In this document: positions 1 to 12,060 of the stretch, one piece after another
How positions within the stretch are numbered: the first letter of the stretch is position 1
How the letters are laid out: each line of letters begins with the position of its first letter
NCBI GenBank assembly: GCA_009930495.1
Contig: RZYB01000004.1
Span: 1 to 45,336, forward strand
Direction: 5' to 3'
DNA length: 45,336 nt
Source of the DNA: Deltaproteobacteria bacterium
GTDB lineage: Bacteria; Desulfobacterota; Desulfovibrionia; Desulfovibrionales; Desulfomicrobiaceae
Translations under genes and position numbers: made by a program
Notes under the pieces: model-generated
Database searches by the model: none
Seen by the model: only the letters and a program-made list of their open reading frames with translations
What the model was told of the DNA's origin: nothing

Positions 1-923
1 GTGGCGAAATCGAAGCTTTTGCGCAGGCCGCGCAGGGTGGTGTTCGTGGTGGCGTCCGTGCCCAGCTCCAAGGCTTTGAGTCCGGCCCGTCGGCACAGAT
101 GCAGTTCCTCGCGGGTGAGTCCTTCCGGTTGGAAGAAGCCGCTCCAGGGGATGGTCAGATTTTGGCGCACCATGGCCTCGGCCAGGCGCAGCCAGTGCCC
201 TTCGCGATCATTGAACACGGAATCGGTGAAGAATATCTCGTGGATGTCGTGGCTGGCCGTGATGCGCAGGATGTCCTCGATGACGGCCTCGGGCTCCCTG
301 GCCCGGATCCGTCCGCCTTCCAGGCTCGGGTAGGTGCAGTAGATGCAGGCGTGCGGACAGCCGCGTTTGGTCTGCAGGTTGAGAATGCCGCTCTGGCCCA
401 GGTAGTAGTCGAGGATGTCCGCATCGGCCCTCGCGCCGTGAATCTCGTTGCCATGCAGGCGGCGTGACCCGTGGAGCAGACGGGGCGGGGTCTGGCCCGC
501 GATCAGCATGTCCAGAAATCGGGAGCAGGCTTCCTCGCCTTCGCCGACAATGCCGTGGTCGGCGCCGGTGTGCTCGAGGATCTGCTCGGGCATGAGGGAA
601 AAGCCCGGGCCGCCCATGAAGATCGGCGCGTTCGTGGCGCGGCGCAGCACGTCGACCGTGGCGCGGACTCCGTCCAGGGCCCAGTGCTCGGCCGAGGTGA
701 GGGAATCGACGTTGTCCAGGTTGCGGACCGAGATGCCCACGGCTTCGGGCGCGAATTCCCGGCACACGGCACCGATTCGTTCGGGGGTGCCGCCGGCCAG
801 GGCGTCGAGTTGGCGAACCTCGTGTCCGGCTTGTTCCAGGGCGCGGGCGATAACGGCCATGCCGAGGGGAAAGACGGGATACGGTTCGGTTTCCGTGTTC
901 GTGGCGATGAGCAGGACGCGCAT
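1..923 (-). CDS. B12-binding domain radical SAM protein (3' end beyond window)
   Basis: The reading frame stays open from the ATG at 923 to the left edge, giving about 307 residues with no stop. Residues 1-140 look like a cobalamin-binding Rossmann fold (start MRVLLIATNTE, then PVFPLGMAVIARALEQAGHE, later GEGEEA). The radical SAM cluster motif C-x3-C-x2-C follows at C189, C193 and C196 (GCPHACIYC). This is the architecture of class B radical SAM enzymes, which do methyl transfers and other radical chemistry. The start lies 2 bases after the thioesterase stop, so it belongs to the lipid cluster, and I infer that it modifies the acyl product. Substrate unknown. The C-terminus is missing from the window. 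Confidence 0.85.
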   Translation of the reverse strand, partial: MRVLLIATNTETEPYPVFPLGMAVIARALEQAGHEVRQLDALAGGTPERIGAVCREFAPEAVGISVRNLDNVDSLTSAEHWALDGVRATVDVLRRATNAPIFMGGPGFSLMPEQILEHTGADHGIVGEGEEACSRFLDMLIAGQTPPRLLHGSRRLHGNEIHGARADADILDYYLGQSGILNLQTKRGCPHACIYCTYPSLEGGRIRAREPEAVIEDILRITASHDIHEIFFTDSVFNDREGHWLRLAEAMVRQNLTIPWSGFFQPEGLTREELHLCRRAGLKALELGTDATTNTTLRGLRKSFDFA

Positions 924-925
924 GT

Positions 926-1384
926 CTAGATGGTCCCGGATTTCCAGCGGTCCAGAAAGGCGAGATAGAAGTCGGGCGGGTACATGAGCGGGGCGCCGGA
1001 TTCCTCGACAAAAAGCTGGATCGAGTATCCCGTCGTGGTCATTTCGCCGGCGTCATCGCGGATCTGGAATTCGTAGTTGACGCGGGCGGCGTCGCTCCAG
1101 TGCAACAGGGCCGTGATCGTGCACGACTGGCCGAAGCGCAGCGGTTGCATGTAATCGACATGCATCTGCTTGATGGGCGTAAGCATCCGTTCGCGATGGA
1201 AATCGAGATAACCGATGCCGTAGCGGTTGCCGTGGGCCACGCGGGCGTCCTCGAAGTAGCTCGGATAGCGGCCGTGCCAGACGATGCCGAGAGGGTCGAC
1301 CTCCTCGAAGCGCACGGCCCGCTCGACCGTGTGCGCCAGTGGGGCCGGATGGTGGGGCGCGGCCTTGAAATACGCTTTTTTCAT
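926..1384 (-). CDS. Acyl-CoA/acyl-ACP thioesterase, YbgC/4HBT hotdog family
   Basis: A 152-residue single hotdog-fold protein. The segment FEEVDPLGIVWHGRYPSYFE is the typical 4HBT active-site region, with the conserved Asp before P-L-G-I-V and an aromatic-rich helix after it. Family members hydrolyse thioesters of acyl-CoA or acyl-ACP in the cytoplasm. In aryl-polyene loci the equivalent gene is apeK, so release or transfer of the finished acyl chain is the likely role. Its ATG overlaps the stop of the FabZ-like gene by 4 bases (ATGA), pointing to translational coupling. The usual Asn of H-x-N-Y in YbgC proteins is Arg here (HGRY). Specificity cannot be read from sequence. Confidence 0.85.
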   Translation of the reverse strand: MKKAYFKAAPHHPAPLAHTVERAVRFEEVDPLGIVWHGRYPSYFEDARVAHGNRYGIGYLDFHRERMLTPIKQMHVDYMQPLRFGQSCTITALLHWSDAARVNYEFQIRDDAGEMTTTGYSIQLFVEESGAPLMYPPDFYLAFLDRWKSGTI

Positions 1385-1758
1385 TGTCCGCCTCCGGTCG
1401 GAATCAGCTCCAGGGTCAGCGAGGCGGCGATGTCGTCATGGACCGCGATCTGGACGATTGCCTGGACGTGGCCGTTTTTGGTCGAGGTCGAGGCCGTGAC
1501 CCGGATCGGTTCCAGCGGCATGATGATGCGCGAGAATTTGGCGCGGCCGACCTTGAGCAGGGTCAGGGGATGGCCGTTTTCGGCCGTGACGATGCCGGCC
1601 ATGATCTGGACCATGCCCGGAAGAATGGCCTGGCTCGGAAAGTGCCCTTGAAAACCGAGAAAGGACGGTGGGAAAATGAATTCCATCGTCCGTGAGTCGT
1701 TGTCCGTGATGGCCTGGCCGACGGCGCAGGCCCGTATTTCCTGAAGCAGTGCGCTCAT
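1381..1758 (-). CDS. FabZ/ApeI-like hotdog dehydratase, catalytic Glu replaced
   Basis: A 125-residue hotdog protein related to 3-hydroxyacyl-ACP dehydratases. It carries the family signature GHFPSQAILPG at residues 38-48, including the catalytic His (H39). At the position where FabZ has its catalytic Glu (14 residues after the His), this protein has Met53 (VQIMAGIV where FabZ has VEAMAQ-like sequence). Alone it may therefore be inactive. In FabZ-type dimers the His and the acidic residue of one site come from different subunits, so it may pair with the second hotdog protein encoded at 5382-5822, which has the Glu. Four-base ATGA overlaps at both ends couple it to the DUF3261-like lipoprotein and the thioesterase genes. 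Confidence 0.8.
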   Translation of the reverse strand: MSALLQEIRACAVGQAITDNDSRTMEFIFPPSFLGFQGHFPSQAILPGMVQIMAGIVTAENGHPLTLLKVGRAKFSRIIMPLEPIRVTASTSTKNGHVQAIVQIAVHDDIAASLTLELIPTGGGQ

Positions 1759-2390
1759 TGCGGTATGGTCCGGATGTCGAGTCGGTAGCGGCCGTCGCCG
1801 TCGGTGAAGACGATGCGGCCGGGTTCATGGGTGGTTGGGTCGTGGTCGCGAAATTCGACGCGCCAGTATTCCTTTGGGCCGTGGGCCGTGGTGGCGATTC
1901 GTTCGCCTCCGGTCACTTCGTGTTCCAGCAGGACGCCGCGACGGGTGTCGTACAGGTGGACCCGGCCATCGCGGTTTTGCGCCGGGTCGTTTTCCGCGGG
2001 CCGGAAGTCCAGCCAGATGCGGCGGATGCAGAAGGCGATGCGTTCGGCCATGCCGGGAACGCGGGCCAGGGCCGGATGGAGCAGATGCGTCTCGACCGTG
2101 TCCGGTGTGACGGTCAGATCGAACACCTTCAGGCCAAAGCCGCCGAGGGCCACCGCCCGCGCCGTCCGCCGTCGTGCATCAAAACCCAGCATGCCGTCAA
2201 AGGCCTGGGGAGCCTGGCCCCGGATTTCCAGGCGCGCGGCGTGACGGAGCACGCGCGGCGTTTCCGGGATGGCCGGTACGACAACGCCCATGGATTTGGC
2301 CGTCGGCTGAGTCCAGAGGGATGGATCGGGTCGCTGGTGGACGCAGCCGCCCAGGCCGATCACGAGCAGGATGACCAGGAAACGGATCAT
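1755..2390 (-). CDS. Outer-membrane lipoprotein, DUF3261/ApeN-like
   Basis: 211 residues from the ATG at 2390, chosen because it starts a clean lipoprotein signal peptide (MIRFLVILLVIGLGGC, lipobox LGGC, acylated Cys at residue 16) and because this ATG overlaps the exporter stop as ATGA. An upstream in-frame ATG at 2423 would add 11 residues inside the exporter gene and spoil the signal peptide. The mature part is beta-rich with no recognisable catalytic motif. Aryl-polyene loci carry a DUF3261 lipoprotein at the same place next to the MMPL exporter and LolA-like protein, and the assignment rests mainly on that context. Likely role: accepting or anchoring exported lipid at the outer membrane (inference). 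Confidence 0.65.
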   Translation of the reverse strand: MIRFLVILLVIGLGGCVHQRPDPSLWTQPTAKSMGVVVPAIPETPRVLRHAARLEIRGQAPQAFDGMLGFDARRRTARAVALGGFGLKVFDLTVTPDTVETHLLHPALARVPGMAERIAFCIRRIWLDFRPAENDPAQNRDGRVHLYDTRRGVLLEHEVTGGERIATTAHGPKEYWRVEFRDHDPTTHEPGRIVFTDGDGRYRLDIRTIPQ

Positions 2391-4756
2391 GCAGTCCGCC
2401 GTTGCAGCAGGGGGATGCCCCATCGGGCCGTGAGCATGGCCGTGCCAATGCCCGTCAGGACCGTCATCCCCAGGGAATGCAGGGCCGGATGCCGCGCCAG
2501 GACCAGCGCGCCGAAGCCGACCAGGGTGGTCAGGCCGGACAGGAGCACGGAGTGGATCGTGCTCGCGCGTGGCCGGCCCATGCCGCTGGTCATGAAAATG
2601 CCGTAATCCGCGCTTAACCCCATGATCAGGGGAAAGGACACGACATGGAACAGATTCACGTCCTGACCGGTCAGGGCCATGGCGGTCAGCACCGCGACAA
2701 GGCCCGCGCCCACGGGCAGCAGGGCCAGCATGGAGCGCGTCGGGTCGCGGTGGAGCAGGAAAACGAGACCAACCACCGCACCGAGGGCCAGGCCGCAGAA
2801 GCGGGAGACGTCCCGCGTCATGGCTTGGCCGAGCAGATCCCGGAAACGGCCGCCGGAGACCAGGCGCGCCTTGGGGTTCAATCGGGCGATGTCATCGGAG
2901 AGTCCGTTCAGGTCGGCGGTGTCGGGAAGGAGGGTCATGACGCGGGTTTGTCCAGCATCTTGCACCGTGAGCATGGCGACGAGGTCGCGCAGACCCAGGG
3001 CATCGATGGTCTCGGCGGTGATGGGAGCGGGATCACGGCGCAAGGCCTCCGCGAAGGGGGTGAAGGATACGCTCGAATAGCCGAGTTTGTGCTTTTCCGC
3101 GGCCAAGATCCGCAGGGTGTCCGGGCCGTGTTCGGTCCAGAATTGCTTCCAGGCCACCATGGCGGCCTGCTGTTTGGTCGGGCCCGGCCAGGCCGGCGCC
3201 AGGCTCATGACGTTCTGCCCGCGCCCCGCGGTCCGCAGGTAGTCCCAGACCGCGTCATTGCCGTCGCGAGCGTGGTCCGAGTCCGTCCCCGAGGTCACGA
3301 TCATGGCCATGTCGCGCATGCCGCCCCATATGGCGCGGGTGGCCGTTTCGTCGTCGCGCAGGCTGACCGGAACATGGCTCAGGGCGCGTGGGTCGCCGTT
3401 GATGCGCAGATGCGTGCCGGCTCCCCAGCCGCAGGCCAGGATCACGACCCAGACGGCGGTCAGGGTGACGCGGCGAATGGTGTGCGCCGGAGATCGTCGG
3501 GGCGCGGCGGGCTGCGTGGCGGCCGTGGTCGGGCCGCGCGGCGTGATTCCATGGGGCAGCACGACCAGGGACAGCAGCAGGGACGCGCCGAGGCCGATCA
3601 TGGAAAAGGCGGCCAGTTGTCGGATGCCGGGGATATCGGACACGAGCAGGGCGGCAAGGGCGGCGAACGAGGTCAGAGCGCCGAAGGTCACGGGGCGGGC
3701 CACGTCTTGAAGTACCGTGGCGGCCGTGCGGCCTTCGTATTCGTGCCCTGCCCGCAGGGCCAGGAAGACGTGCAGGGCGTAATCCACGGAAATGCCGAGC
3801 AATACGGCTCCGAAGCCAAGCACGATGCCGGAGATGTCGCCGTGAATGGCGGCGGTGCCGACTCCGGCCACGCTCATGACCGAGATCGGGACCAGAAAGA
3901 CGAGGATGCTTTGCGGGGAGCGCAGGAATAACAGGAAGATAACGGCCAGGGCGAGCAGGGACGCGGGCAGGATGCGTTCCAGGTCGGCCTTGATGGCCTC
4001 GGCATTGGCCAGGGTATGGCGGTGACCGCCGAGCAACATGACCCGCGCGCCTTCGGGCAGGGCGGATTTGGCCCGGTCCAGGGCGGCCATGAGGGTCGCC
4101 GCGCCGCGCGAGTCGGTCATGGGGATGTCCGTGTCGGCCAGGATCAGGGCGTGCATGCCGTCCTGGCTGACGAACTGGCCGTTTTCGATTCTGACCTGGG
4201 CGAAACGGGCCAGCGGGGTCAGCTTCGCCAGAACCAGGTCGCGGATGCCAAGGGGGTCCCGGTTGACGGCGTCCTTGAGAGCCAGTCCGCCGGGGCCGAG
4301 CAGCGTGTTCCGGTTTCGCTCCAGGGCGGCATGGATGGACCGGGTGTCGAGCCGGTTTTCCAGCTCCCGCAGATCCGTGGCGTCGAGCAGGGCTGGCGCC
4401 AGATCCGGGACACGGGCCAAAAAGCCGACGTCCATGCGCCCGCTCGGGCCGGTCATGACGTGGGTGAATTCCGGTTGTCGCCGCAGGGACTCGGCCAGCA
4501 GTCGCGCCGCCGTCGCCGCGTTGCCTCCGGGATGCGAGACGGTGACGGTTAGGCGCCGGGCAAAGGGGGCCTGGCGCAGTAGCGCGAAATCTTCGGCGAT
4601 GGCGCCGCTTTCCGGGAGCATGGTCTGGATGTCTTCGCGAACCACGAGGCGTGTCAGCCATACGGTGCAGACCGCGATCAGGACCGCGGTCGAGGCGAAC
4701 AGGGCGCGCCGGCGCGGCGCCAGTCGGGAGTACAGCGGGCCGAGACCGTGGCGCAT
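2387..4756 (-). CDS. MMPL/RND-superfamily lipid exporter
   Basis: 789 residues from the ATG at 4756; upstream in-frame starts lie inside the LolA-like gene and give non-membrane sequence. One N-terminal membrane helix (residues about 17-37) is followed by a large periplasmic domain, then a bundle of helices (for example LLALAVIFLLFLRS). A second copy of the same helix-loop-bundle pattern follows. This duplicated layout with about 12 segments is typical of MMPL/RND transporters such as hopanoid HpnN and ApeM. Acidic residues in the helix bundles (GISVDYALHVFLAL; GLSADYGIFMTSG) are placed as in proton-driven RND pumps. It probably moves the cluster product across the inner membrane. It starts 2 bases after the LolA-like stop and overlaps the next gene as ATGA. 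Confidence 0.88.
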   Translation of the reverse strand: MRHGLGPLYSRLAPRRRALFASTAVLIAVCTVWLTRLVVREDIQTMLPESGAIAEDFALLRQAPFARRLTVTVSHPGGNAATAARLLAESLRRQPEFTHVMTGPSGRMDVGFLARVPDLAPALLDATDLRELENRLDTRSIHAALERNRNTLLGPGGLALKDAVNRDPLGIRDLVLAKLTPLARFAQVRIENGQFVSQDGMHALILADTDIPMTDSRGAATLMAALDRAKSALPEGARVMLLGGHRHTLANAEAIKADLERILPASLLALAVIFLLFLRSPQSILVFLVPISVMSVAGVGTAAIHGDISGIVLGFGAVLLGISVDYALHVFLALRAGHEYEGRTAATVLQDVARPVTFGALTSFAALAALLVSDIPGIRQLAAFSMIGLGASLLLSLVVLPHGITPRGPTTAATQPAAPRRSPAHTIRRVTLTAVWVVILACGWGAGTHLRINGDPRALSHVPVSLRDDETATRAIWGGMRDMAMIVTSGTDSDHARDGNDAVWDYLRTAGRGQNVMSLAPAWPGPTKQQAAMVAWKQFWTEHGPDTLRILAAEKHKLGYSSVSFTPFAEALRRDPAPITAETIDALGLRDLVAMLTVQDAGQTRVMTLLPDTADLNGLSDDIARLNPKARLVSGGRFRDLLGQAMTRDVSRFCGLALGAVVGLVFLLHRDPTRSMLALLPVGAGLVAVLTAMALTGQDVNLFHVVSFPLIMGLSADYGIFMTSGMGRPRASTIHSVLLSGLTTLVGFGALVLARHPALHSLGMTVLTGIGTAMLTARWGIPLLQRRTA

Positions 4757-4758
4757 GG

Positions 4759-5385
4759 TCAGCGGAACAACCCGGCGTCGAGGGGTTGGTTGATCACGGT
4801 GCCGGAAAAGGTGATTCGGGTGAAGTCCTCGCCCTGTTCCCGCAGTTCGACCCTGGCGACCGTTTCCCCCGACGGTGAGAATTCGATCAACAGGCATTGC
4901 AGGATGCGCCGGGCCTCGTCGCCGCGCGGCGTGAGGCGCAGAACGACGGGCGAGGCGCCATCAAGGGCGATGTCGTATTCCTGTCGCAGTCGGTCCAGGT
5001 CAAAGGTGGCCCAGGCCAGGAGTTGGCCGGCGACAATGTGCATGACCGGATCCTGGCGCAGGACGAATTGTCGTCGGTTTTCGACCGAGTCCGTCCAGCG
5101 CGTTCCTTTATCGCCGCTGATGGCGAACCCCTCGATGAGCGGGTCGATGTATTCCCAGCGCAACTTGTCCGGTCTGTCGAAGTAAAATCGACCCGTGGAC
5201 ACGAGCACGGAATCGAACATGGACAGCCGTTTTTCCTGCTTGAAGTCGCTGACGATGGTCGCGACTCCAGCGGCCTTGGACCGCAGGCTGTTCAGAATTT
5301 CCGTCGGCTCGGCGGCCGGGGCGGTGGCGGGTAGGGTCGCCAAGGCCAGCACAAGTCCGAATAGCAGGCCGAGATGCCGATTCAT
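4759..5385 (-). CDS. LolA-like periplasmic lipid carrier
   Basis: 208 residues from the ATG at 5385, which overlaps the stop of the upstream hotdog gene (ATGA). A signal peptide of about 27 residues ends near APAAEP. The mature protein has LolA-family features: an early FKQEK segment, then STGRFYFDRPDKLRWEY with the conserved Arg-Trp-Glu strand, and later a beta-rich barrel half. LolA proteins shield lipoprotein acyl chains while crossing the periplasm. In aryl-polyene loci a LolA-like protein (ApeL) accompanies the MMPL exporter. I infer that it carries the cluster product rather than general lipoproteins. A housekeeping lolA would not normally sit among ketosynthase genes. Confidence 0.85.
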   Translation of the reverse strand: MNRHLGLLFGLVLALATLPATAPAAEPTEILNSLRSKAAGVATIVSDFKQEKRLSMFDSVLVSTGRFYFDRPDKLRWEYIDPLIEGFAISGDKGTRWTDSVENRRQFVLRQDPVMHIVAGQLLAWATFDLDRLRQEYDIALDGASPVVLRLTPRGDEARRILQCLLIEFSPSGETVARVELREQGEDFTRITFSGTVINQPLDAGLFR

Positions 5386-5822
5386 GCCGGATTTCCCGCG
5401 TTCGGAACGTAGAGTTTGATCTTGCCCTGGGCCAGGATGTCGCTGTCCCGGGTGATGGTCGCCCGGACAACGCCGAAGCCCTCGAAGGTGCCCAGGGACA
5501 CGGTTTCGATGCATAGACGGTCGCCCATCCGGGCGTCGGCCAGACATTCGAAACCTTGCGCGCCAACCAGGAAGCCGATGGGAAAGGGCTGGCCTTGGCG
5601 AACGAATTCCCAGCCCTTGAGCGCGGCGAAGCTCTGAGCTGCCAGTTCGATGAAGGCGCAGCGGTCCATGCGGCCCTGGCTGTCGAGCAACATGTGTCCC
5701 GGTGTCAGGCGGGTTTCGCACAGCCCTCGGTCTTGGTCGGCTTCCAGCAGACGGTCGATGTAGACCATGGGCGGCTCGTGGGGCAGGAGGGTCGCGGCCG
5801 GGGCGGGGAGTTGGTTGTGCAT
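5382..5822 (-). CDS. ApeP-like hotdog dehydratase subunit
   Basis: 146 residues from the ATG at 5822; no convincing Shine-Dalgarno is visible and no better start lies between it and the upstream lipoprotein stop. LPHEPPMVYIDRLLEAD (residues 13-29) matches the opening strand-helix of FabZ/ApeP dehydratases. FIELAAQSFAALKG (residues 57-70) matches the FabZ helix with catalytic Glu (E59). A His occurs at residue 43 (PGHMLL), 16 rather than 14 residues before the Glu and without the normal GHFP context. It probably supplies the Glu side of a mixed dehydratase with the 1381-1758 product, as recalled for ApeI/ApeP. Its last codon overlaps the LolA-like start (ATGA). Confidence 0.72.
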   Translation of the reverse strand: MHNQLPAPAATLLPHEPPMVYIDRLLEADQDRGLCETRLTPGHMLLDSQGRMDRCAFIELAAQSFAALKGWEFVRQGQPFPIGFLVGAQGFECLADARMGDRLCIETVSLGTFEGFGVVRATITRDSDILAQGKIKLYVPNAGNPA

Positions 5823-5889: not shown

Positions 5890-6312
5890 TTATTTGAGTG
5901 CGTTGAGTTCGATCTGGATCTCGTGTTCGAGGTTCTTGATCCACCCGTTGTAATTTTTGTGGATTTGGTTCTTGGCGGCGTCATAGTGCAGGTTGGCGCT
6001 GTCCTTGTAGGCGATGTTGAAGGTGCTGGCCGTATGGGTGATGTCGACCACGGCCTGGTGCGCGCGCAGGTTGAGGGTGCCGAGGATATGCCCGTCCGCC
6101 TTGGTCTGCATGATCCAGCCCAGCTTGTTGCCAGCGCGCAGGATGGCGTCCCGGACGGCGTCCGTGTCGAGGCGCTGGTTGGCATTGGTGGCGACCGGCG
6201 CGTTCGTGACATTGTAGACGGCGGCGTTGCGGATGCAGCCGGTCATGACGAACAAGGCGGCGGCAAGGGTGACGGCAACGAGGAAACGCGGAAATCGGAA
6301 TGTCGGGTGCAT
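5890..6312 (-). CDS. Small lipoprotein of the lipid cluster
   Basis: 140 residues with a lipoprotein signal peptide ending at a clear lipobox (FVMTGC, Cys26). The start ATG is preceded by the Shine-Dalgarno CAGGAGAAGAG. The mature protein is mixed alpha/beta and ends with an amphipathic helix (NLEHEIQIELNALK). The segment NYNGWIKNLEHEI resembles small lipoproteins I have seen in other envelope loci, but I cannot name a family. It lies between the acyltransferase and the ApeP-like genes, so a part in product transport or anchoring is likely by context only. Lys/Arg after the Cys give no clear inner-membrane retention signal; outer-membrane placement is probable. Confidence 0.75.
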   Translation of the reverse strand: MHPTFRFPRFLVAVTLAAALFVMTGCIRNAAVYNVTNAPVATNANQRLDTDAVRDAILRAGNKLGWIMQTKADGHILGTLNLRAHQAVVDITHTASTFNIAYKDSANLHYDAAKNQIHKNYNGWIKNLEHEIQIELNALK

Positions 6313-6343: not shown

Positions 6344-7114
6344 TCACTCGGCCGGTTCTCGCAGAGCTGTCGCCAACAGAGCCTTGACGTGCTTGCGCAT
6401 GGCCAGGTGCGCGCCGGGACCGGCTGCCTTGAAATCGGCTGGAAAGACAGGTGCCATTTTTTTGATTGTTATGGAAGCCTTGCGCAGCCACACGCCCCCC
6501 CTGGGCAGAAAGTCGCCCATCCCGCGCAGGCAGATGGGGATCACCGGCACTCCGGTTTGCAGGGACAGTTTGAACGCCCCGGAATAGAAGCGGCCGAGTT
6601 GCCCGTCCGGGCTGCGCGTTCCCTCGGGAAAAATGATGACCGAAATGCCGTTGTTCAGGCGTTGGACGGCCTGATCCAGAAATTCGTCGCAGCTCAGGTG
6701 TTCGCTGTTCAGGTATTCCCCGCGCCGCATGTACGGGCCGTAGAACGGGATGCGGAAGGGCCAGGACCGCACGACGAAGACCAGATCGTAAATGGGCAGG
6801 GCCCCCATGCAGAAGGCGTCGAAAAAGGACTGGTGGTTGGCGACGATGATGCACGGCGCGGGATAGTCCGCCGCGTCGCCCGTGCCGATCCGGACCGGGA
6901 CCACGAGCCGGAGCAGCCATGTCCATGCCCGTCCGTAAACCCAGATGATGCGGCGCACGGCCTGGCCGGAAGTCGCCCCGCCAAGGCGGCGCAGGATGAT
7001 GTACAACGGCGGGGAAAGAACGATGGTGATCAGGGTCAGAAGTGTCAGGCCGCCGTAATGGACAAGGTTGCGTACCCCATCGGCACAAGTAGGGGGCTGG
7101 TGCGCGGCGGCCAT
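6344..7114 (-). CDS. PlsC-family lysophospholipid-type acyltransferase
   Basis: 256 residues with the hallmark LPLAT motifs: NHQSFFD (H94-x4-D99), the catalytic dyad, and FPEGTRS (162-168), the glycerophosphate-binding motif. A hydrophobic N-terminal segment (about 21-41) probably anchors it to the inner membrane. Relatives transfer acyl groups from ACP or CoA to lysophosphatidate. Here the gene follows the cluster ACP by 6 bases, so the donor may be that ACP and the acceptor a cluster lipid. A general PlsC function is not excluded, though the dedicated PlsY gene is at 12415-12996. Aryl-polyene loci contain a similar acyltransferase. Confidence 0.88.
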   Translation of the reverse strand: MAAAHQPPTCADGVRNLVHYGGLTLLTLITIVLSPPLYIILRRLGGATSGQAVRRIIWVYGRAWTWLLRLVVPVRIGTGDAADYPAPCIIVANHQSFFDAFCMGALPIYDLVFVVRSWPFRIPFYGPYMRRGEYLNSEHLSCDEFLDQAVQRLNNGISVIIFPEGTRSPDGQLGRFYSGAFKLSLQTGVPVIPICLRGMGDFLPRGGVWLRKASITIKKMAPVFPADFKAAGPGAHLAMRKHVKALLATALREPAE

Positions 7115-7120
7115 GCCTGA

Positions 7121-7378
7121 TCAGGATTCGAGGGCGCGTTTTTTGTCGATGACGAAGGCGTGCAGGTCCGCCAGGGTTTTGATGGTCGCGATCCGTGGAT
7201 CCTTGCCGATTTTGATGCCGAATTCCTGTTCGAGCACGATGACCATGTCCACGGCATCGAGGCTGTCCAGTCCCAGGTCGTCCTTGAAGGAGGCCTCGGG
7301 CGTCATGTCGGCCGCGTCCAGTTCGAATTCTTCCGCGATGGCGGCGTTGGTTCTGTCGATGATGTCCTCATCCGTCAT
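7121..7378 (-). CDS. Acyl carrier protein
   Basis: An 85-residue acidic protein with the phosphopantetheine attachment motif GLDSLDAVDM; Ser39 is the carrier serine. Size, acidity and four-helix pattern (IIDRTNAAIAEEF; LDAVDMVIVLEQEF) are typical of type II ACPs. It holds growing acyl chains as thioesters for the ketosynthases, ketoreductase and dehydratase of the cluster. Its start overlaps the end of the FabF-like gene by 11 bases. It is probably not the housekeeping AcpP, whose gene normally sits between fabG and fabF with fabH/fabD nearby. Only one ACP is visible, whereas APE loci usually have two. Confidence 0.93.
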   Translation of the reverse strand: MTDEDIIDRTNAAIAEEFELDAADMTPEASFKDDLGLDSLDAVDMVIVLEQEFGIKIGKDPRIATIKTLADLHAFVIDKKRALES

Positions 7379-8606
7379 GCGAGAATCTCCTTAAAACAAT
7401 GGAACAGTTCACACCGCCGAGGGCGAAGTTGTTTTTGACGAGGTTGACCACGGGTTGGCGGGTAACCTCCCGAAGCAGGTGGGCTTTTGAGCATTCAGGG
7501 GCTGGGTTGTCAAGATTGCGAGTTGGAACGAGGGTCTCATTGCAGAGCATTTTCACGCATGCCGCAAGTTCAATCGCGCCGCTGGCGGCCATGGTGTGCC
7601 CCAGGTGTCCCTTCAGACTTGATACGGGTACTTCCGGACCGAACAGATCGGCGATGGCCGCGCTTTCCGAAATGTCGCCCTGCATGGTGCCCGTGGCGTG
7701 GGCGTTGATATAATCAATGTCCGTTGCAGTCAGCCCCGAGTCGCGCACCGCGAGTTCCATGCACCGACGCATTGGGGCTGAGCTCGGGTTGGCGATATTG
7801 GTGGGGTCGGATGTTGAAGCAAAGCCAGCCACCTCGGCGAGGATATCGACGCCGCGTTCCAGAGCTGAGTCTAATGATTCCAATAAGATGATGCCAGCGC
7901 CTTCGGAGCAGACCATGCCATCCCGGTCGCGATCAAAAGGGCGAGGGGTTTGCCGTGGGGCGTCGTTAAAAGCCGTGGATGCGGCCTGCATGATATCGAA
8001 CGTCGCCGTTGTCAGCGGGTGGAATTCGTCGGCTCCACCGCAAAGCATAAGATCCTGGCGACCGAGGAGGATAGCTTCATAGCCAAGCCCAATGGCTTGA
8101 CAGCCAGTGGAGCAGGCCGCCGACGGAGCCACCGTGCGCCCGTTGACGCCCAGGGCTTGGGCCACGTTGGCCGCGCAGGAATGGCCCATGATGCGAAAAA
8201 ACAGCATGGATTTGATCTGCTCCACGCTTTTGGTGGCGAGATATTGAGAGAAGAATTCCTCCATGGTGTCGACACTGCCGACGGTGGAGCCCAGGACCAC
8301 GCCGAGGCGTCCACCGCTGCGCAGCGGTTCGTCGACGCCTCCCTGGTGCAGGGCTTCCTGTGCGGCCAGGAGCGCGTAAACGGACATGGACGACATGGAA
8401 CGGCGCACTTTGCGCGGGATATCACTGATATCAATGCTCCGGACAAGGCCAGCGACCCGTGGTCTCAATCCTTGCACTCGCTCCAACTCCGGATGCTGGC
8501 GGATAGCGCTTTTGCCCGTGAGGAGGGCATCGAACAGCCGGTTCACGCCAGGTCCGAAGGGTGTGACCGCGCCCATCCCGGTAATGACGACACGTTTTAA
8601 TGGCAT
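7368..8606 (-). CDS. Beta-ketoacyl-ACP synthase, FabF-like (KAS II type)
   Basis: 412 residues, full length for a FabF-type condensing enzyme. The catalytic triad is intact: Cys165 (AACSTGCQ), His303 (NAHATGTM) and His337 with Lys332 (LKGHLGHTMAASG). The Gly-rich C-terminal strand NNFALGGVN is present. It catalyses decarboxylative Claisen condensation of malonyl-ACP with an acyl primer. Because the Cys is present it is not a chain-length factor. The start overlaps the flavoprotein stop by 10 bases and the end overlaps the ACP start. Base composition here is visibly less GC-rich than in most of the window (one line near 7.86 kb is about 49% G+C). Confidence 0.92.
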   Translation of the reverse strand: MPLKRVVITGMGAVTPFGPGVNRLFDALLTGKSAIRQHPELERVQGLRPRVAGLVRSIDISDIPRKVRRSMSSMSVYALLAAQEALHQGGVDEPLRSGGRLGVVLGSTVGSVDTMEEFFSQYLATKSVEQIKSMLFFRIMGHSCAANVAQALGVNGRTVAPSAACSTGCQAIGLGYEAILLGRQDLMLCGGADEFHPLTTATFDIMQAASTAFNDAPRQTPRPFDRDRDGMVCSEGAGIILLESLDSALERGVDILAEVAGFASTSDPTNIANPSSAPMRRCMELAVRDSGLTATDIDYINAHATGTMQGDISESAAIADLFGPEVPVSSLKGHLGHTMAASGAIELAACVKMLCNETLVPTRNLDNPAPECSKAHLLREVTRQPVVNLVKNNFALGGVNCSIVLRRFSHDG

Positions 8607-10081
8607 GCGCGAAGCTCCTTGCGGATGATATCGTGCCCCACGAGGAATCCGCAGGTCAGGACGGCGGAGATGATCGCTCCCAGCAGACCGGGAGCGACGA
8701 TGGACTGGCCGGCGAGCATGAGGCCGGGGATCCGGGTTACGGGCATGGGGTTGAGCTGATGAATGGAATGACGAGCGCCATAGAGGCTGCCCGTGGGCGT
8801 GCGCATGTAGTCACGCAGGGTCAGCGGCGTGGCGCCGTCGATAAACCGGACGCTGGAGAGTTCTGGTGCCGAGTCCAAGAGACGGTCGCGCATGGCCTTG
8901 AGACGTTCGGATTTGTGCTGGTGATACGAGTTTGGACGTCTGCCGGTGTGGGTTTCTTTCCAAGCATCAACCATGCTGGCGTGCCCTGGCGCGATGGCGA
9001 TGATGGCTCGGGATGTGGCGTTTCCTGGTTGCTCCGTGGATGCGATATAGAACGGGCCGCTCTCTGGATGACGGCCTGGCCGGAAGAAGGACGGGACATC
9101 CGTGTCTGGACAGACGAACAGATTGCTTCGGTCCAGAAGGTCGAGGGGCGCATCGGAAATGCCGAAGAGCATATACGCCGAGGGCGTGTCCTCAAGGCTT
9201 TGCATGTGGCGACGAAAGGCCGGGCGCATGGCCTCGGCGGGTAGTAAATGGGCCAGTACGGAAGGATGTGTCGTGCAAACGATTTGTGTTGATTTCAAGA
9301 TTTCGCCGTTTTTCAGTTCCACGCCACGAATGTCGCCTGTAGTATCGAGCACGATCCCATGAGCGGCCTGCCCAAAAAAGGTTTGTACTCCGACGGTGTT
9401 GAGGGCCTGTTCGAAAGCGTGGACCACGCCCCGTCCGCCTCCGTTCACGCCGTGCACCGATTGGTAGTAGGATCCAACAATACGAGCGTGATTGGAAAAG
9501 GGACATTCATCGGGGGACACGCCATAAAGAAGGCTGTGCATGGACAGGATGGATTTGAGTCGATCGTCGGAGAAATGCGTCTGTAGGTAGTCGGTCAGAG
9601 ACTGTTCCCGAAGCATGACGTCGAGATCGTTCCGGGAAAAATCACGCTCGGGATTCAAAAAAGGCGACGATTCAAAAGCGGTCCGGACATCGTCGAGATA
9701 GGTGATGATGCCCAATCGTTGGTCAGGAAAGGCGTCCAGAAGCGTGGCCTGGATCTGTTCGCGGCCGATCGGAAAGGAAAACTCCATGCCATCGGATGAA
9801 AAGCGAAAGCGGTCAAAGCACATTGGATTGTATGGCACGGGTGTCACGTCCCGCAGATCCAGCCAATGGAGATAGCGATCGAGGATTTCACCCGGAGCGA
9901 GCCCGCCCGTGTAGTGAAGTCCGGTATCGAAGTAGATGCCGCCGCGGTGAAAACCGCGTAGCGTTGGCGCGGCTTGGGGGAAGGCTTCGACGAGGCTCAC
10001 GTGGTGTCCGTGACGGGCCAGGATGAGTGCCGTGGTCATGCCCGCGACGCCGGCGCCGATAACGATTGTTCGAGGGGCCAT
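8597..10081 (-). CDS. Phytoene desaturase (CrtI)-like FAD-dependent oxidoreductase
   Basis: 494 residues from the ATG at 10081, 5 bases after the upstream ketosynthase stop; the longer frame to 10141 adds sequence without homology. The N-terminus is an FAD-binding Rossmann motif (IVIGAGVAGMTTALI, Gly9, Gly11, Gly14) followed by HHVSLVEA. The C-terminus PGLMLAGQSIVAPGLLGAI is the second FAD contact of CrtI/retinol-saturase-like flavoenzymes. These introduce, isomerise or saturate double bonds in polyenes. No terpene genes (crtB, crtE) are nearby, so an acyl substrate bound to ACP or phospholipid is the better guess. Similar flavoproteins are prominent among ladderane candidate genes. The gene is markedly lower in G+C than its neighbours. 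Confidence 0.87.
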   Translation of the reverse strand: MAPRTIVIGAGVAGMTTALILARHGHHVSLVEAFPQAAPTLRGFHRGGIYFDTGLHYTGGLAPGEILDRYLHWLDLRDVTPVPYNPMCFDRFRFSSDGMEFSFPIGREQIQATLLDAFPDQRLGIITYLDDVRTAFESSPFLNPERDFSRNDLDVMLREQSLTDYLQTHFSDDRLKSILSMHSLLYGVSPDECPFSNHARIVGSYYQSVHGVNGGGRGVVHAFEQALNTVGVQTFFGQAAHGIVLDTTGDIRGVELKNGEILKSTQIVCTTHPSVLAHLLPAEAMRPAFRRHMQSLEDTPSAYMLFGISDAPLDLLDRSNLFVCPDTDVPSFFRPGRHPESGPFYIASTEQPGNATSRAIIAIAPGHASMVDAWKETHTGRRPNSYHQHKSERLKAMRDRLLDSAPELSSVRFIDGATPLTLRDYMRTPTGSLYGARHSIHQLNPMPVTRIPGLMLAGQSIVAPGLLGAIISAVLTCGFLVGHDIIRKELRACH

Positions 10082-10086
10082 GTATT

Positions 10087-11301
10087 TTAGAACCGAAGTA
10101 TGAGACAGGAGTTGGTGCCGCCGAAGCCCGCCGCGTTGCACATGGCCGTGCGCGGAGCGCGTTCGATGGTCTCCGGCGTGATGGCCAGGCCGGCCGTGTC
10201 GTCGTCGGGCTGGTCGAAGTTGATGCTTGGGGCGATGAAGCCGTCACGGGCCATGAGGGTCGTGTAGACGACCTGGGACGCGCCGGACATCCACAATTCA
10301 TGGCCGGTCATGGATTTGGTCGATGAGATGGTTGGCGTCGTGGCCCCGAACACGTCGCGGATATTCCAGGCTTCCACGCCGTCGCCGGCGGGAGTGGCCG
10401 TGGCGTGGGCGCAAATGTAGTCGATGTCCGCTGTCGTGAGATTGGCGTTGTTGAGCGCCGCGCGCATGGCTCGGGCCAGGCCGCCGCGGCTGGGCACGGA
10501 GAGGTTTTCGCCATCCGAGGAAAAACCGTGGGCGAGAACTTCGCCAAGGATGCGCGCGCCGCGCGCCTTGGCCATATCCATGTTTTCAAGCAGGATGACC
10601 GCCGCGCCTCCACTGGGCACCAGACCATCCCGATTGCGGTCAAAGGGACGGCTGGCCCTGGCGGGATCGTCCGCGCGCGTCGAGAAGGCTCCAAGCCCAT
10701 CGAAGCTGCAGATGGACTGCCAGTTGATTTCCTGGACGCCACCGCAGATGACCCGGTCTTGCCGGCCAAGGGCGATCAGATCCGCGGCCTGTCCGACGGC
10801 CTGTCCTCCACTGGCGCAGGCCGAGCTGAGAGTCCAACAGGCGCCCTTGGTCCCGAACAAGGTGTTCAGATTCATGGTTACGCATGAGGTCATGGCGCGA
10901 AAAACGAGTCCGCTGCCAATGAGGCTGGTTTGGCCACGCTTTTGGAGAAGCTCGACCTGTTCGATGGCCGCGATGCTGCTGGAATCCGAACCAAAAATCA
11001 GGCCGGTGCGGTCGTTCTTGAGCTCGTGCGGATCCAGTCCGGACATGGTCAGGGCTTCCATGGCCGCGGCGAAGGCCCAGACGGCGAAATCGGGCATGGT
11101 TTTGCGCTGTTTACGGCCGAGAGCGGGTACGGGGGCAAAATCGCGGATCGCGCCGGTCAGGGGCGAGGAGAAGCCGAGAGCCTGTCGCTCGGGATCGACG
11201 GTGATGCCGGATTTACCCGTGTACAGGGCCTTGGACACGGTGTCCGTGTCGTTGCCGAGGGTCGAGACGATGCCGATGCCGGTGATTGCTATGCGGTTCA
11301 T
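10087..11301 (-). CDS. Beta-ketoacyl-ACP synthase, FabB-like (KAS I type)
   Basis: 404 residues with a complete condensing-enzyme triad: Cys162 (LSSACASGGQAVG), His299 (ICAHATATPAGD) and His334 with Lys329 (STKSMTGHELWMSGAS). The KSMTGH form and the C-terminal NAAGFGGTN resemble FabB rather than FabF. It may do initiation or unsaturated-chain elongation while the FabF-like enzyme does the rest, or the two may form a heterodimer as in APE synthases. Unlike an APE chain-length factor it keeps the nucleophilic Cys. The gene starts 33 bases after the ketoreductase stop, with AAGGA just upstream of the ATG. Confidence 0.9.
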   Translation of the reverse strand: MNRIAITGIGIVSTLGNDTDTVSKALYTGKSGITVDPERQALGFSSPLTGAIRDFAPVPALGRKQRKTMPDFAVWAFAAAMEALTMSGLDPHELKNDRTGLIFGSDSSSIAAIEQVELLQKRGQTSLIGSGLVFRAMTSCVTMNLNTLFGTKGACWTLSSACASGGQAVGQAADLIALGRQDRVICGGVQEINWQSICSFDGLGAFSTRADDPARASRPFDRNRDGLVPSGGAAVILLENMDMAKARGARILGEVLAHGFSSDGENLSVPSRGGLARAMRAALNNANLTTADIDYICAHATATPAGDGVEAWNIRDVFGATTPTISSTKSMTGHELWMSGASQVVYTTLMARDGFIAPSINFDQPDDDTAGLAITPETIERAPRTAMCNAAGFGGTNSCLILRF

Positions 11302-11334: not shown

Positions 11335-12060
11335 TCAGGTCAGGATGCCGCCGTTGACGGAAATGACCTGACCCGTGATGTAGGATGCTCCTGGGGAACA
11401 GAGAAAGGCCACGACATCGGCCACTTCCTTCGGGGTGCCGACGCGCCCCAAGGGAATTCGCGCGCGGATTTCGCCCACGGGCAAATCCTTGAGCATCTCG
11501 GTATCGATGAATCCTGGGGCCACGGCGTTGACGAGGACATTGCGCTTGGCGATCTCCGTGGCCAGGGAACGGGTCGCTCCGATGAGTCCGGCTTTGGCTG
11601 TGGAATAGTTGACTTGACCAGCAACGCCGGTTTCTCCGGACGTCGAGGCGATGTTGATGATCCGGCCCCGGCGTTTGCGCAGCATGGTGGGCAAAACGGC
11701 CCTGGTCACGTTGAAAAAACCACGCAGATGGACGTCGAGCACATCGGTCCAGTCCTTTTCCTGCATCCAAATCATCAGTCCGTCACGCGTGAAACCGGCG
11801 TTGTTGATCACCGCGAATGGCGTTTGCCGTTCCAAAAGAGGCGCCAGGGCAGCGGTACAGCCGGATGCGTCAGCGACATCAAAGGCCAGGAGCGTGCAGG
11901 ACCGGCCCAACGTTTCAATGCTGTTTTTGACGTTTGTCGCGCCGTCGTGGTCACTGCGGTAGTTGAGCCAGATGTCAAATCCGTCTTTGGCCAATTTCAG
12001 GGCGATGGCCGCGCCGATCCCTTTACTGGCCCCAGTAACGAGTGAAATGGGATGTGTCAT
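11335..12060 (-). CDS. 3-oxoacyl-ACP reductase, FabG-like SDR
   Basis: 241 residues, the usual FabG length. NADP(H)-binding GASKGIG (10-16), NNAG (86-89) and the catalytic Ser139, Tyr152 and Lys156 (YSTAK) are visible. The Asn of the SDR tetrad, normally in an N-L context, is His111 here (DVHLRGFF), a substitution seen in some ketoreductases. It reduces 3-ketoacyl-ACP to 3-hydroxyacyl-ACP in the first reductive step of each cycle. No enoyl reductase is seen in the cluster, consistent with a product that keeps double bonds. It is the first enzyme gene of the run, 96 bases after the small lipoprotein gene. Confidence 0.92.

Follow-up and report, generated by a model that had tools for sequence, protein, structure and literature searches.

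The two hotdog proteins encoded at 1381..1758 and 5382..5822 are very probably the two chains of one type II PKS dehydratase of the ApeI:ApeP kind, with a single live site formed by His39 and Glu59 at their interface and a dead second site. The window (the whole stretch of DNA analysed, 45,336 nucleotides) is an entire contig, C4, and both genes are located on its minus strand, at exactly the positions given in the initial annotation, which had left out the strand. That annotation had read the pair as two halves of one active site, akin to ApeI and ApeP. Each residue that it named was confirmed at codon level on the minus strand: in the 125-aa ApeI-type subunit, His39 within GHFP (CAC, 1642..1644) and Met53 (ATG, 1600..1602), at the position of the FabZ Glu and the FabA Asp, and in the 146-aa ApeP-type subunit, Glu59 within FIELAAQ (GAA, 5646..5648). 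The idea of two halves is borne out by the alignments described below, and the kinship by profile searches, comparison of the folds, co-occurrence and the literature, lines of evidence that also support 1:1 pairing, with one of the two sites live and the other dead. The mechanism that it put forward is right but already known in kind, a point that it missed, since an ApeI:P heterocomplex has been solved (6QSR, 'The Dehydratase Heterocomplex ApeI:P from Xenorhabdus doucetiae') and ApeI/ApeP has been described as a heterodimer with a single active site (PMC8041823).

The pair is found within a gene cluster on the minus strand. The operon starts with a FabG-type ketoreductase (KR, 11335..12060, ApeQ/FlxB-like), followed by a ketosynthase, KSb (10087..11301), a CrtI/CrtD-like FAD oxidoreductase (8597..10141), a second ketosynthase, KSa (7368..8606), an acyl carrier protein (ACP, 7121..7378), a PlsC-type acyltransferase (6344..7114, ApeD-like), a small lipoprotein (5890..6312), the ApeP-type subunit, a LolA-like periplasmic carrier (4759..5385, ApeL-like), an MMPL/RND lipid exporter (2387..4756, ApeM-like), a DUF3261 lipoprotein (1755..2423, ApeN-like, 24.3 bits over a cut-off of 22.3), the ApeI-type subunit, a 4HBT thioesterase (926..1384, ApeK-like) and a B12-binding radical SAM protein (1..923), cut by the left end of the contig. 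Stop and start codons overlap as ATGA at three junctions in the window (DUF3261/ApeI, ApeI/thioesterase and ApeP/LolA). The small lipoprotein has no Pfam family, is conserved in these clusters and keeps its position in most of them. Both ketosynthases have a full Cys-His-His triad (AACSTG, NAHATGT and GHLGHT in KSa; SACASG, CAHATAT and MTGHE in KSb), and thus neither of them is a chain length factor of the classical type. When compared with E. coli CFT073, the export and core genes for aryl polyenes are all present: LolA, MMPL, DUF3261, thioesterase, acyltransferase, ACP, KS, KR, ApeI and ApeP. Because this gene set is APE-like and has an export branch, the likeliest product would be a membrane-anchored or exported polyene lipid. 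Another contig of the same genome, C177 (locus L139), appears to carry the continuation of the cluster, with the C-terminus of the radical SAM protein, a GT2, an LpxL-like acyltransferase, an ACP and a third KS, which is 66% identical to the KS of a sister cluster. An aromatic starter, as in aryl polyenes, would call for a dedicated ligase (ApeH) together with an ApeC-type short CLF or an ammonia lyase. In one genome (G055) an AMP-ligase lies beyond the cluster; the source genome has no close counterpart of it (28% identity at best), and the window stops at the contig end.

We have compared 37 ApeI-type and 41 ApeP-type proteins from genomes of the order. In the ApeI-type proteins the residue aligned with His39 was His in 37/37 cases. 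The position 14 residues further on, Met53 in the window and Glu in FabZ, was Leu in 18, Met in 12, Cys and Gly in 2 each and Ser, Ile and Ala in one each, with no Asp or Glu in any of the 37. Besides, no invariant Asp or Glu that might substitute for it was found among 29 aligned sequences. Gln51, Pro47, Lys74 and Pro81 were invariant (n=37); Gln51 (codon 1606-1608) is also found in the aligned classical ApeI proteins and is absent from FabZ. As to family, PF22818 (ApeI) matched the window protein with 17.3 bits, under the gathering cut-off of 28.5, and is nevertheless its sole Pfam family match, and the FabZ model TIGR01750 gave 20.6 bits for a cut-off of 155. The profile of the family had as top matches 3esi (1.9e-12) and 6qsr_A (1.3e-11), ahead of FabZ, and hhalign against E. 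coli ApeI gave 4.6e-11. The predicted structure (pLDDT 91.9) is a hotdog that, as modelled, is as close to FabZ (Z 16.2) as to chain A of 6QSR (Z 14.7), which, like the PF22818 score under the cut-off, counts against the ApeI:ApeP reading.

The ApeP-type protein presents the reverse situation, with Glu59 retained and the catalytic His replaced. Glu59, in the E-x-x-A-Q helix, and Gln63 were both found in 41/41 proteins. PF22817 (ApeP) gave 42.6 bits, above its gathering cut-off of 27, and the family profile matched 6qsr_B with 8.6e-22, ahead of the closest FabZ (5e-9) by about 12 orders of magnitude. The predicted model (pLDDT 94.2) also had 6qsr_B as its best match (Z 21.4, rmsd 2.4 over 142 residues). 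The ApeP of the source genome has a GH at 42-43, near the position of the FabZ GHFP, and it could be argued that ApeP works as a homodimer, with this His43, or else His15, in the catalytic role and with ApeI as an accessory. We consider this extremely improbable, as His43 is 16 and not 14 residues ahead of Glu59 and is His in 8/41 proteins only, while His15 is the His of LPH(R), which is present in FabZ as well, beside the catalytic one. No His was conserved at the catalytic position in the 41 aligned ApeP-type proteins. The initial annotation had said that an acidic or His residue aligning in the missing half-site would speak against two complementary halves; none is conserved there in either alignment.

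If the two proteins form the proposed heterodimer, each chain would be a single hotdog, and the ApeI-type and ApeP-type chains would sit side by side in the manner of FabZ or FabA monomers. The working site at the interface would be made up of His39 from the first and Glu59 from the second, and in the symmetry-related site Met53 would face a loop lacking His, leaving that site dead. Each time the KS, KR and ACP of the cluster extend the polyene, the enzyme would dehydrate the beta-hydroxyacyl-ACP intermediate. We infer in this way the 1:1 dimerisation, which of the sites is live and the ACP-bound polyene substrate.

The complementarity is found well beyond the window. A scan for distant relatives, with an 11-row ApeP alignment as the query, recovered the same His/Glu split in loci of Geobacterales (Geobacteraceae), Desulfuromonadales, Myxococcota, Lentisphaerota and Hydrogenedentes, wherever the contig has the genes. 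Since the pattern holds across the order and in these distant loci, it is conserved as a feature of the pair and is not a quirk of the window, and as judged from the alignments it is far beyond chance. Clusters of the same type appear in MAGs from distant phyla, namely L096 (Lentisphaerae), L106 (Hydrogenedentes) and L100 (Neptunomonas), which suggests either transfer or MAG contamination.

The two genes also travel together. Of the 199 genomes surveyed in the order, 45 had an ApeI (E below 1e-20) and 44 an ApeP, and each of these 44 was among the 45. The association has a Fisher p of 1.5e-43, or 4e-11 when counted by genus, both of which overstate the evidence on account of shared ancestry; the co-occurrence is in part the common descent of one operon. 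There was no case of ApeP without ApeI in the 199 genomes: four that seemed to be so (G048, G034, G077 and G012) had their ApeI elsewhere in the genome. Only one genome (G035) had ApeI without ApeP, in a lone DUF3261-ApeI-thioesterase remnant with a short radical SAM gene and devoid of ApeP and the exporter (contig C46, L108:9129-11514). In most genomes the order is ApeP-LolA-MMPL-(DUF3261)-ApeI-thioesterase, and ApeP is usually separated from ApeI by about 4 kb. At one locus (L091) the two genes are directly adjoining, with the ATG of ApeI at the end of ApeP. Two genomes of the same genus, G048 and G034, had the cluster broken across two distant places of the genome with both halves retained (in G048 at C1:1072593 and C1:1541994, loci L033 and L074; similarly in G034), and in these split clusters a CRISPR-associated-looking stretch comes after the ApeP-LolA-MMPL half. 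In some relatives ApeP is immediately preceded by a gene of the radical SAM-SPASM type, which the window lacks (L034:10377-11417, L036:8904-9959 and L038:8803-10347). In L038 its reading frame stays open into that of ApeP, as it does by ORF length in L084 and L087, a possible fusion of the SPASM radical SAM enzyme with the dehydratase subunit.

A hotdog protein that keeps the His is not necessarily a dehydratase. AmcE, from a type II PKS-like system, keeps it and is a decarboxylase (PMC10698177). By analogy, the ApeI-type protein might on its own run some other reaction that needs the His only, such as an ACP-bound decarboxylation, and ApeP would have a separate role; the loss of the acid from every ApeI of the clade would fit. 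We regard this as very unlikely, given that the complementary Glu is invariant in ApeP, that the pair strictly co-occurs, that the profiles relate the two proteins to both chains of a solved dehydratase complex and that no further dehydratase gene was found in the cluster, on contig C4 and its apparent continuation on C177 as read. The genome does carry an ordinary FabZ (contig C10), which we used as a control and which has both the His and the Glu with a spacing of 14, GHFPAYPVMPGVLILEA (TIGR01750, 191.3 bits). This housekeeping enzyme could in principle perform the dehydration of the pathway, with ApeI/ApeP merely binding or shielding the intermediates. We find that even harder to credit, because the aligned pair sequences have diverged to a mean column identity of 38% and still strictly retain the His and the Glu, which would not be expected of a mere binding protein.

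The proposed heterodimeric dehydratase can be set against known systems. The ApeI:ApeP complexes (6QSR from Xenorhabdus doucetiae; ApeH-I/ApeP of A. baumannii) resemble the window pair in having two hotdog chains, with the His on one side and the Glu on the other, in the single active site that is proposed here, and in their operon partners, LolA, MMPL, DUF3261, thioesterase, KR, KS, ACP and acyltransferase. The window cluster differs from the classical APE clusters in its gene order and in the addition of the radical SAM and CrtD-like FAD genes. In FabZ and FabA the Glu-His and Asp-His dyads are also divided between subunits (PMC2698920) of the hotdog fold; however, these enzymes are homodimers with two identical sites, whereas in the window pair the His and the acid are encoded by separate genes. 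The mycobacterial HadAB and HadBC are hotdog heterodimer dehydratases, with a single active site in HadAB, but they are hydratase-2-like, and HadB holds both the His and the Asp while HadA only binds the chain, unlike the split dyad described here. Regarding the type II PKS of flexirubin/xanthomonadin type, the KR and LolA of the window were nearest to the FlxB and LolA2_flexi models, both under the cut-off, and in a Lysobacter cluster of this kind two FabA/FabZ-like dehydratase genes have been reported.

The acid position separates the window pair from the classical ones. We have examined nine classical ApeI proteins, from plasmid-borne clusters and E. coli CFT073, representing Escherichia, Cedecea, Moellerella, Pseudoalteromonas, Cupriavidus, Caballeronia and Burkholderia. 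The acid position was Asp (QxD) in all of them (9/9) and is also Asp in the aligned 6qsr_A, and the ApeP partners of those sampled had the Glu and lacked the His. The classical signature is a His with an Asp 14 residues on (GHF...QxD), in contrast to the clade of the window, which has kept the His throughout and has Met, Leu or another non-acid in place of the Asp. When 65 sequences were placed in a tree, 55 acid-free ApeI proteins, mostly of delta-type anaerobes, were set apart from the Asp-bearing ones and FabZ by one branch (support 98/96), although the sequences compared are short and there are long branches around the FabZ outgroup. This topology is consistent with the acid having been lost in one change. 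Since the acid of the ApeI-type chain is wholly lost, neither chain alone can carry the FabZ/FabA dyad, and going by their sequences the half-sites of the acid-free clade are strictly complementary, with no spare dyad in either chain. Classical ApeI, whose His and Asp make up a FabA-like pair, might in principle be able to dimerise with itself as FabA does. We think it probable that it decayed to a strict split that arose once, at the base of the clade of delta-type anaerobes and their relatives, giving a heterodimer that would be obligate and have one site, as neither gene product alone would have the dyad.

The data extend the polyene lipid clusters of the ApeI:ApeP type to Desulfovibrionales and other delta-type anaerobes. 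At the level of titles and abstracts, we found nothing specific on aryl polyenes in Desulfovibrio or Deltaproteobacteria, and in the literature searched no report on the product of these clusters in Desulfovibrionales or delta-type anaerobes. The heterodimer principle has already been published for aryl polyenes and what is new is the acid-free ApeI. Because the His and the acid are on separate genes and there is no spare acid, each mutant would isolate one half of one site, and the pair is a clean natural system in which to test how the half-sites of hotdog dehydratases function. If the split is indeed obligate, these bacteria would hold a natural, evolutionarily fixed half-site complementation experiment.
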